Below are positions 40,293 to 43,701 of a DNA stretch of 64,000 nt, piece after piece. The notes beneath the pieces were generated by a model. It was not told the origin of the DNA and searched no databases. It saw nothing but the letters and a program-made list of their open reading frames with translations. Positions within the stretch are counted from its first letter, which is position 1. Every line of letters starts with the position of its first letter. The position numbers were made by a program, and so were the translations under genes. The stretch comes from Bacteroidota bacterium (lineage in GTDB: Bacteria > Bacteroidota > Bacteroidia > UKL13-3): assembly GCA_947460345.1 (NCBI GenBank), contig CANHGM010000011.1:1-64000 (forward strand), given 5' to 3'.

Positions 40293-41426
40293 CTACAAGT
40301 TTTCTTTAGTTGTTCTAGTTTTAGAATTGAAGCCAAAAGTGACTCCAAATCGGTAGCTATTTTTTGAAATAGTCATATAAGCATTGAGCGGTAGGTTCAT
40401 AGAACCTGAACGAATAGATTTACCAGCTGCAAATACAAAGGCATAATTGATACTGGCATCACCTCTTTTATCTATATTATAAATAAATTGAGTGTTAGGA
40501 TTTTTAATTATAGTTGGGTCATCAAACTCATTAGCTAAATGCCATTTATCACCAGCATCATAAAAACCTCTTGCAGTTTGTGTAATTCCAATTTGTGGTC
40601 CTAAGGCAAACTCCCATCCACGTTTGTTATCTCTAAATCCATTCATAAAAGTAAAACTTGGAATAAATCTACCAGCATCTAAACCACTCACCATCGGTAT
40701 AAACTCGAACAAAGCTTGGAAATTTCCTTCATTTATATATTGCACTTCTTTTTGATAACCAAATACGGTCATGATGTTTCTTTTAATACCATATCCACCT
40801 TCTGACTCGTCAGCACTTAATCTTCTTGCTTCTTCGCCAGTAACCATTACTACACCTATTCTTGGACCTGTTAGTACTAATTTACCAACACCTGGGTTAT
40901 TTGTTTTTGAATCAAAAGTTTTGATGGTTAATGAAGAAAGAGTTGCATCGTCAACTGATTCACCTAATAGCTTCATGATGCTTATTCTTAACATCGTTTG
41001 AAGTTCAGGTTGGATGTTTAAGTATTCCATTACATTTGATTTTTCGGCAAAGCCTCCATTTACATTAAGAAGCATCAGTCTAATTACTATTTTTTCACCG
41101 AATCTAGATACATAGCCGCTTAACATATAATCGGCTTTCATTAATTTACCTACTTGAATTAAAGTTTCTTTGTTGTAGCAGCTATCTATTTTGATACCTG
41201 CTTTTGATAAAACAACTTTGGCGTCTTCTCTTTGTAACACTTCATACTTGTTTAATTTTTCCATTTCAAGTCTAAGAAGATCTCCTGTTTGTTCGTTGTC
41301 ATAAACCACGTTAGAAGTTTTGATGTTAAGTACTCCTAAAACTGGTAATTGTTGAGATTTTGAACTATTTGCTATAACTATAAAAGCAAATAAGAATACG
41401 ATTTTTTGAATAGTTAGTGATTTCAT
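40293..41426 (-). CDS. Exported CsgG/FlgO-like protein
   Basis: From the ATG at 41426 the product is 377 residues with a signal peptide (IVFLFAFIVIANSSKSQ); a frame reaching 41477 adds a low-complexity Asn run and is not chosen. Residues ~25-150 (VLGVLNIKTSNVVYDNEQTG, KYEVLQREDAKVVLSKAG, LMKADYMLSGYVSRFGEKIVIRLMLLNV) have the CsgG/FlgO/TolB-like fold that senses or builds export structures. The C-terminal half looks beta-rich, perhaps an outer-membrane part. Its upstream region holds a six-copy phased repeat array, so it is one candidate for control by that array. Confidence 0.75.
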   Translation of the reverse strand: MKSLTIQKIVFLFAFIVIANSSKSQQLPVLGVLNIKTSNVVYDNEQTGDLLRLEMEKLNKYEVLQREDAKVVLSKAGIKIDSCYNKETLIQVGKLMKADYMLSGYVSRFGEKIVIRLMLLNVNGGFAEKSNVMEYLNIQPELQTMLRISIMKLLGESVDDATLSSLTIKTFDSKTNNPGVGKLVLTGPRIGVVMVTGEEARRLSADESEGGYGIKRNIMTVFGYQKEVQYINEGNFQALFEFIPMVSGLDAGRFIPSFTFMNGFRDNKRGWEFALGPQIGITQTARGFYDAGDKWHLANEFDDPTIIKNPNTQFIYNIDKRGDASINYAFVFAAGKSIRSGSMNLPLNAYMTISKNSYRFGVTFGFNSKTRTTKENL

Positions 41427-41808
41427 TTTGTTTTTTTTTAAATTGTTGTTGTTATTTAATGAGACAAAATTGCTCACCTCCTCACCTTAAAAATAATTGA
41501 TTTCTGCAAATCGGGGGTACTAATTTTAGTAATTTCTGCAAATCGGTCGAAACTTTTTAGTAATTTCTGCAAATTTTGGGTTAGGCTTTAGTAATTTCTG
41601 CAAAAAATGACAAACCCTTTAGTAATTTCTGCAAATTTTGGGAAAGTCATTAGTAATTTTTGCAAAAAACGACAAGTCCAAACCCCAAAAAAGGAGCTAA
41701 AATGGGCCCAAAAACATGCTTAAAATAGATTACATTAAATTTTATTAGCTTGTATTTCTGATATTTAAAAATTATTTTTATTTTATAAAAATTAGGTTCA
41801 AGAATTAA
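41427..41808. other. Gene-free divergent region of 382 bp with a repeat array
   Basis: No supported coding frame. It holds six phased direct repeats (41494-41668) and a further ~140 bp of AT-rich sequence before the plus-strand gene. It must contain the promoters of the CsgG-like gene and of the 179-residue protein gene. Confidence 0.8.
41494..41668. repeat. Array of six direct repeats TTTAGTAATTTCTGCAAA with a 31-bp period
   Basis: The core TTTCTGCAAA starts at 41501, 41533, 41564, 41595 and 41626, with a sixth copy at 41657 reading TTTTTGCAAA. Spacings are 32, 31, 31, 31 and 31 bp, close to three turns of B-DNA. Copies 2-6 share a fuller consensus TTAGTAATTTCTGCAAA; the first begins TAATTGATTTCTGCAAA. 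The ~13 bases between copies vary. This is not a CRISPR (repeat and spacer too short, no cas genes). Regular helical phasing suggests a cooperative protein-binding array. Confidence 0.9.
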
Positions 41809-42348
41809 TTGCAACAAAAATTATCTAAAGAGAAAGATACTTTAGAAAAACAAAGTACCTTTCCCCAAAGATTTTTACTTACTTCAAATGCATTTGCACA
41901 ATGCAGTGTAATACCTATGTCAAAACCTTACCCATTTATTAGTCCAAATCCATTTTATGATTGTGATGTTAGACTATATTTGGATTATATGTGTATTTGT
42001 ACTCAACAATGTTCACAATACACAAGTAATTACCTAGCTGTGACTGTTATTGACCATAATAATTTCCCAATAAATTATTATACAGAAAGTTCGCCTTCAC
42101 AGTGTTGTGTTTTTGTTTTGGTTGGAGCTCATATTACTAAAACAGACTATTATGGTGGAACAGAAATATTATTTTGTCCATCAGGAAGTCTTCAAACATT
42201 ACAAGGTATTTTAGATGGTTCTATTAATTATACAAGTGTTGGATTTTTAGGAACATTTATTAAAGATTGTAATGGAAATAGTTTAGCTTCACCAGTTGGT
42301 TTTAGTATGTCTGGAACACCTATGGGACTTTTTATTCAATTTCCTTAA
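41809..42348 (+). CDS. Cysteine-rich secreted protein of unknown function
   Basis: The listed 179-residue frame starts at a TTG; an ATG at 41917 gives 143 residues. LLTSNAFAQ at residues 23-31 looks like the end of a signal peptide, yet what precedes it is hydrophilic, so the N-terminus may be truncated or frameshifted. The rest has nine or so cysteines in pairs (YDCDV, MCICTQQCSQY, SQCCVF, LFCPSG, IKDCNG) and beta-like segments. No family recognised. It lies 140 bp after the phased repeat array and 12 bp before a T9SS cargo gene, probably in one transcript. Confidence 0.6.
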   Translation: MQQKLSKEKDTLEKQSTFPQRFLLTSNAFAQCSVIPMSKPYPFISPNPFYDCDVRLYLDYMCICTQQCSQYTSNYLAVTVIDHNNFPINYYTESSPSQCCVFVLVGAHITKTDYYGGTEILFCPSGSLQTLQGILDGSINYTSVGFLGTFIKDCNGNSLASPVGFSMSGTPMGLFIQFP

Positions 42349-42360
42349 TCAAATTAAAAA

Positions 42361-43701
42361 ATGTTTTATTTAAAAAATTTAGGCTTTTGTTTTTTTATAA
42401 TAATAAACTTAAATAATCCTTGTATTGCTCAAAAATGGTCTGCCTTAGGTCAAGGAGTTAAATCGTTAAATGCAAATGATAATATTTTAGCCATTACAAC
42501 TGATATAAATGACAATATTTTTGTAGCTGGAAAATTTGCACATATAGACTATGACTCAGGGTACAATTGTGTAGCAAAATGGGATGGTAATAAATGGAGT
42601 ATTTTAGGTAAGTTTAATGAATTAGAAGCCAATGACAGTATATTAACTTTAACTACAGACATAAATGGTAATATATATGCTGCTGGAAAATTTAAAGACA
42701 AAAATGGTTATTGTTATGTAGCAAAATGGAATGGATTTACTTGGAAAAAAATTGGAGATTTAAACGCAAATGGCAGAATCTCTAAATTGGTTTCAGATAA
42801 AAACGGATTTATATATGCAGGTGGTGATTTTAAAAATGATAGTGGTTATTGTTACATTTCAAAATGGAATGATACCATATGGCAAGAAGTAGGTGCAGGT
42901 TCAATTTCTTTTAAATCAAAAGCTGCGATAAATGATATATTAATAAATAAAAAGGGTTCTATAATTACCTCAAGCATCAGAATTTATGAATGGGATGGAT
43001 TATTATGGAAAGAAATAGGTGATTTATTTAACTATGTTCATACTTTAGCAGAAGATAACCAAGGGGCAATATATGCAGCTGGTGATTTTGTTGACATGAA
43101 TAATAATAAATATGTAGCTAAACTTGAAGGTAATAAGTGGGTTCAGCTAGGAATAGGTAAAGATGCATTAAATGCCACGGGCTACATTTCATCCATTTTA
43201 ATAGATGGTTCAAACAATGTATATGCAGCAGGTTGGTATATGTTTGATAGCACTGGTAATACATATGTAGCTAAATGGGATGGGACTACTTGGAGTAAAC
43301 TTGGAAATAATACTTATAATCAAGTTGCTTACAATCAAAATAATTTTATATATGCTTTGACATTTGATAATTCTGGAAGCCTTTTAGCTGTTGGAGATTA
43401 TACAGATTCTATGGGAAGAAAATTTGTTGCTCGTTATGGCTTCCCTTTAGGTGGTTTAAGCAATCAAACTACTCATCAATCTTTTTCAATATATCCCAAT
43501 CCTTCAAATGGTAGAATTACTTTACAATACACAGCTTCAAAAAAAGAAACTTTAATCATATATAATAATTTAGGCATTAAAGTTTATCAAACAACTATAT
43601 TGCCATATTCTTCAACTCATCAAATTGAAATTAGTTCATTAGCCAAGGGAATATATTTTATTCAAATTGATGAAAATATTCAAAAACTCATAGTCGAATA
43701 A
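42361..43701 (+). CDS. T9SS-secreted repeat (beta-propeller-like) protein
   Basis: The 446-residue protein has a signal peptide (FFIIINLNNPCIAQ) and about seven repeats of ~45-50 residues with the pattern [VI]AKWDG-x-x-W-x-x-[LI]G followed by LTTDINxNIxxAGKF, for example around residues 70-120 and 280-340. This resembles delta-60 / propeller repeats on cell-surface proteins. The final ~75 residues are a T9SS type A sorting domain starting SIYPNPSNGRITLQY and ending IYFIQIDENIQKLIVE. It should be exported through the outer membrane and may be surface-bound. The ligand is unknown. Confidence 0.87.
   Translation: MFYLKNLGFCFFIIINLNNPCIAQKWSALGQGVKSLNANDNILAITTDINDNIFVAGKFAHIDYDSGYNCVAKWDGNKWSILGKFNELEANDSILTLTTDINGNIYAAGKFKDKNGYCYVAKWNGFTWKKIGDLNANGRISKLVSDKNGFIYAGGDFKNDSGYCYISKWNDTIWQEVGAGSISFKSKAAINDILINKKGSIITSSIRIYEWDGLLWKEIGDLFNYVHTLAEDNQGAIYAAGDFVDMNNNKYVAKLEGNKWVQLGIGKDALNATGYISSILIDGSNNVYAAGWYMFDSTGNTYVAKWDGTTWSKLGNNTYNQVAYNQNNFIYALTFDNSGSLLAVGDYTDSMGRKFVARYGFPLGGLSNQTTHQSFSIYPNPSNGRITLQYTASKKETLIIYNNLGIKVYQTTILPYSSTHQIEISSLAKGIYFIQIDENIQKLIVE

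Follow-up and report, generated by a model that had tools for sequence, protein, structure and literature searches.

A phased array of six predicted operators upstream of an envelope gene in a Bacteroidota genome and a BetR/XRE-type candidate for its regulator

Regulators of the BetR/XRE (lambda repressor-like) type are the described proteins closest to the system discussed here. Their dimers typically recognize a dyad of 17 bp in which about one helical turn separates the centres of the half-sites, and the unit of the array reported here has the same dimensions. Likewise, the predicted model of the candidate regulator, encoded on contig C40 of the same genome, has an XRE-type N-terminal domain like that of DdrO or SinR, whereas the roughly 250 C-terminal residues of its family are without a confident match to a family or solved fold. 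BetR is a domain name only, and an operator or regulon for this regulator group was not found in the literature searched. Within the same phylum, the LexA-like SOS repressors of Bacteroidetes are phage-repressor-like proteins with N5-spaced dyads, namely CTAA-N5-TTAG and GGA-N5-TCC (PMC8565304). Both motifs are absent from the array, the half-sites of which differ from those of LexA, and its predicted target is an envelope gene. A parallel in arrangement is found in BvgA at the ptx promoter, a single promoter with several weak upstream sites in helical phase through which it is activated (PMC7250471). The array resembles this arrangement, its weak binding being judged from site scores, but it involves another class of regulator, a local target of one gene and steps of 31 bp instead of shorter ones.

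The window, by which we mean the whole stretch of 64,000 nucleotides that was analysed, contains six repeat copies that start at 41494, 41526, 41557, 41588, 41619 and 41650. Their spacings are exactly 32, 31, 31, 31 and 31 bp, and all positions and spacings reported in the sequence-only reading were borne out. The conserved unit is 17 bp long, TTAGTAATTTCTGCAAA; it is identical in copies 2-5, differs at one base in copy 6 (C to T) and at three in copy 1, which retains only the TTTCTGCAAA end. Read toward the left-hand gene, the 17-mer is TTTGCA-N5-TACTAA. The 10-mer TTTCTGCAAA occurs five times within 175 bp, compared to about 0.14 occurrences expected per strand in the whole window. The predicted operators are listed below, with ranks from the weight matrix described further on.

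41494..41510, minus strand, predicted operator copy 1, promoter-proximal and degenerate, TTTGCA-GAAAT-CAATTA
41526..41542, minus strand, predicted operator copy 2, TTTGCA-GAAAT-TACTAA, matrix rank 5 (tied) of 63984 window positions
41557..41573, minus strand, predicted operator copy 3, identical to copy 2
41588..41604, minus strand, predicted operator copy 4, identical to copy 2
41619..41635, minus strand, predicted operator copy 5, identical to copy 2
41650..41666, minus strand, predicted operator copy 6, distal, TTTGCA-AAAAT-TACTAA, matrix rank 2 of 63984

In the 17-bp core, copies 2-6 share a mean pairwise identity of 98%, versus 39% in the spacers, and the invariant columns of the 31-bp unit fall in the core without exception (16/16, hypergeometric P = 5.7e-8). 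The sequence-only reading had described a conserved core with freely varying gaps and had dismissed plain tandem duplication. The conserved core stands, but free variation of the spacers does not: spacer 3 is related to spacer 5 (TTTTGGG...) and spacer 4 to spacer 6 (AAAxGACAA...), with a period of 62 bp. This periodicity makes part of the array look like the tandem duplication of a two-unit block. Copies 3-4 and 5-6 look as if they derive from such a duplicated block, in which the spacers have since diverged and the core has remained unchanged. Elsewhere in the 3.0-Mb genome, no site comes closer to the 17-mer than two mismatches, and the other matches of the genome to TTTGCA-N5-TRCWAA lie inside ORFs. 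Viral contigs, plasmids, phages and 85k species were also searched, and the matches examined were coding repeats or simple tandem repeats built from different units. The array as such is absent from the 97 related genomes searched, but the 17-bp dyad recurs before the orthologues of the left-hand gene.

40293..41426, minus strand, likely target gene, 377-aa exported protein with an LpoB/TolB-N-like domain followed by an OmpX/Ail-like eight-strand barrel

The array probably controls this LpoB-like/beta-barrel gene on its left and activates it, as judged from the upstream regions compared below. The protein matches no Pfam family at E 0.01, the CsgG family included, and has weak NCBIfam matches to LpoB and TP0183. 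Its predicted model consists of an LpoB/TolB-N-like domain and a subsequent eight-strand barrel resembling OmpX and Ail, and the earlier designation as CsgG-like is replaced by this description; CsgG is a fold relative only. GldD and an alpha/beta hydrolase gene lie downstream.

Upstream regions of 400 bp were scanned at orthologues of the left-hand gene, with the window excluded, in a first set of 31 and a larger set of 51. The 17-bp inverted repeat TTTGCA-N5-TGCAAA recurs in these regions. Among the 31 orthologues the dyad is perfect in 12, present with at most one mismatch in 18 and with at most two in 24, while dinucleotide shuffles average 0.03, 0.42 and 3.7, respectively, and alternative gaps of 0 to 20 between the half-sites give 0-2 perfect matches. 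The larger set yields 21 perfect dyads, 34 with up to one mismatch and 43 with up to two; in both sets the genomes were sampled as relatives and are not independent, so that shared ancestry inflates the figures. About one fifth of the upstream regions are devoid of a good dyad. Since 57 of the 58 genomes contain only 0-11 perfect dyads each, a perfect dyad within 400 bp is rare by chance. The exception, G059, has 30, about ten times the usual number, many of them in pairs 20 bp apart (for example at C12:9251-9287 and C43:7141-7177 of that genome); they are an unrelated repeat family.

The window core, in reverse complement TTTGCA-GAAAT-TACTAA, shares the 17-bp length and the N5 layout of this dyad, with one half perfect and the other degenerate (4/6), like the second sites of the relatives. 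By a weight matrix built from other genomes only, window copies 2-6 take ranks 2 and 5-8 among 63984 positions. Single window copies score 10.9-12.6 versus 17-23 for the best orthologous sites, and single scores comparable to theirs arise by chance in 64 kb. Hence, several sites may make up by number for what each has less in score. In 12 of 43 orthologue loci there is a second site at +30 or +31, against a mean of 0.23 per offset; where present, a second site is usually weaker and 30 or 31 bp nearer the gene, and the pitch in the window is 31 bp. The G005 second site at +31, ATTGCA-GAATT-TACTAA, even has the same TACTAA half as the window copies. The window array therefore looks like an expansion of this weaker, asymmetric kind of site: related bacteria have 1-3 sites at the orthologous gene, the species of the window has six. 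In two genomes, G010 and G029 (L038, L229), the target gene is preceded by three operator-like sites spaced 29 and 50 bp apart, which suggests other in-phase arrangements. The earlier proposal of a phased protein-binding array is well supported.

41465..41472, minus strand, putative -7 promoter element CAATTTTG, to be compared with TAnnTTTG of Bacteroidota

Promoters of Bacteroidota follow the consensus TAnnTTTG, and a binding site just upstream of the polymerase is usual for activators. Directly after operator copy 1, a T-run (41490-41493) occupies the position expected of a -33 element. In the window as well as in G004, G016 and G026, which belong to the nearest genus, the proximal operator begins 38 bp upstream of the -7-like box, and the bases between them differ. 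The box itself is CAATTTTG in G026, as in the window, CACTTTTG in G004 and GTTGTTTG in G016. Taken together with the consensus, the 38-bp distance puts the predicted operator in this activator-like position. A general distance between operator and -7 box was not found over all orthologues; there the distances peak at 68 and 118 bp, and 38 bp is found only in the clade of the window (four genomes).

The sequence-only reading had left the binding protein unnamed. A likely candidate can now be given, a regulator of the BetR/XRE type, and the array can be assigned to the left-hand gene on the strength of the orthologous upstream regions. In 15 genomes the orthologous gene is divergent from a helix-turn-helix regulator of about 330 aa, 175-931 bp away, that has a BetR/XRE-like N-terminus and beyond that no recognised fold. 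The genome of the window encodes exactly one such regulator, unlinked to the array at C40:18957-19949. Its immediate neighbours are a PorZ-type T9SS gene on one side and a gene for a UvrD-like helicase on the other (G000, L214 1157-4471), the regulator itself occupying L214:3452-4471 on the minus strand. The C40 protein scores 23.9 bits with Pfam BetR, above the gathering score of 21.6, while other family members fall just below the cut-off (18.8 and 20.3), and it keeps the conserved recognition helix DSAYRRIRGEK. Its own upstream region contains no recognisable operator. Gene and regulator co-occur in the 58 genomes: 31 have both, one the gene only, eight the regulator only and 18 neither (Fisher P = 5e-8). 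In the genome with the gene only, G080, no operator was found. The eight with a regulator and no LpoB-like/barrel gene are G007, G009, G018, G020, G023, G068, G077 and G079; of these, G068 carries a perfect operator a short distance upstream of its own regulator, and with the target gene absent other targets may exist.

Further links between regulator and operator come from genomes with exceptional arrangements. The regulator is unlinked in G010 and G029, yet perfect operators precede both regulator and target gene. Only the regulators of G022 and G030 have DSTYRR instead of DSAYRR, and these are loci without the usual dyad, which carry a changed TTTGCR...CCGTAAA sequence, TTTGCRCAAAWCCGTAAA, in its place. 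Both genomes belong to one genus, and the change of helix and operator thus counts as one event. We show here, by sequence comparison, a predicted operator that is orthologous across the family in its place at this gene and in its architecture, together with the 30/31-bp pitch, the distance from the promoter, and the linkage and co-occurrence of regulator and gene. From these comparisons, we infer physical binding by the C40 protein, cooperativity, and activation in preference to repression.

It seems highly probable that the six 17-bp operators are an expanded array for the C40 regulator, through which the gene at 40293-41426 would be activated. With a pitch of 31 bp, all six operators would lie on one face of the helix. 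A regulator dimer might make strong contact with TTTGCA and weak contact with the degenerate TACTAA half, and dimers in phase may help one another, so that number could compensate for the lower score of each site. From just upstream of the -33 element, the dimers would then touch RNA polymerase and activate the envelope gene. Only tentatively, and with some doubt, we suggest an undescribed pair of regulator and operator in Bacteroidota, in which the regulator lost its linkage to the target while one strong palindrome gave way to six weak, asymmetric operators in phase. If true, a bacterial promoter would here have switched naturally from affinity to avidity. Searches of the open-access literature for the motif and for phased arrays returned no description of the regulator-operator system, which is weak evidence of novelty. 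Few operators are known in Bacteroidota, and the locus provides a target gene, a DNA site and a candidate regulator for an uncharacterised BetR-like family. Moreover, relatives with 1, 2, 3 and 6 sites at one promoter offer a natural experiment on operator number versus strength versus helical phase.

The same operators and regulator could also act in repression, with a cooperative repressor complex that spreads over the array until a signal releases it. Activation and repression share array and regulator and differ only in sign, and the confidence assigned to each overlaps accordingly. A helix-turn-helix of the lambda-repressor/XRE kind would fit repression, and autorepression would suit both the divergent placement over the regulator's own promoter and the perfect operators at the unlinked regulators of G010 and G029. 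We nevertheless regard repression as rather unlikely because the whole of the proximal operator, in the window as in the sister genus, is upstream of the -33-like position, with no overlap with the -7 box in any of these genomes, which is more activator-like. It is improbable that the operators are real but bound by another protein, the linkage to the BetR-like regulator being incidental. The unlinked position of the regulator in the genome of the window would agree with this; the co-occurrence (P = 5e-8) with 15 divergent pairs, the self-operators at unlinked regulators and the fact that recognition helix and operator changed together in one genus speak against it, as does, for LexA in particular, the missing CTAA-N5-TTAG motif (PMC8565304).

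That the array is a neutral minisatellite, generated by tandem duplication and functionless, appears very improbable to us. The 62-bp duplication visible in the spacers of copies 3-6 and the fact that no relative searched has the array as an array speak for such an origin, but the confinement of all invariant columns to the core (P = 5.7e-8) argues against it, and the core matches the independently found operator of the relatives in length, layout, pitch and position. We find it hardly credible that the locus is a mobile-element remnant, a CRISPR-like array, an iteron origin or a structured RNA. An insertion-sequence end does lie about 120 bp to the right of the array; the fuller copy of that element, however, is without such repeats, plasmid and phage records gave no match, and the hits in 58 viral contigs (two-copy pattern) and 37 genome stretches (three-copy pattern) are unrelated repeats. 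The suggestion that the array is left over from an element now lacking its own gene is likewise not supported, given the orthologous operator at the same gene in relatives. Against a CRISPR-like array or an iteron origin, the neighbours are envelope and T9SS genes and plasmid or phage matches are lacking, and against a structured RNA, no Rfam family matched and the predicted fold is not unusual (z 0.33 and -1.5).

Activation of the left-hand gene remains our preferred explanation, and the right-hand side of the array contains the following features.

41790..41882, plus strand, remnant of one insertion-sequence end, IS30-like, 91% identical to C12:84648-84738 of the same genome
41809..42348, plus strand, cysteine-rich ORF, the first ~25 codons of which are insertion-sequence remnant
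42361..43701, plus strand, T9SS cargo-type protein (Por_Secre_tail), a neighbour outside the operator system

The cysteine-rich ORF starts inside the insertion-sequence remnant, and hence its natural start appears to have been lost, along with its own signal peptide; it is a probable pseudogene. Apart from a 28-residue stretch derived from the insertion sequence, it has no relative in the 58 related genomes. What had been taken for a cysteine-rich gene is therefore an ORF truncated at its 5' end and joined to the end of an insertion sequence. This ORF was considered as the target of the array and rejected, as it begins in the remnant and is without relatives beyond that stretch; its regulation by the array is unlikely. 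The fuller insertion-sequence copy on C12 encodes a transposase of the IS30 type (HTH_38 and rve); a stop lies inside the transposase frame (L043 1479-2548), and this copy looks likewise decayed. The window opens (1-315) with a 123-bp unit that is repeated 2.6 times with 95% identity.
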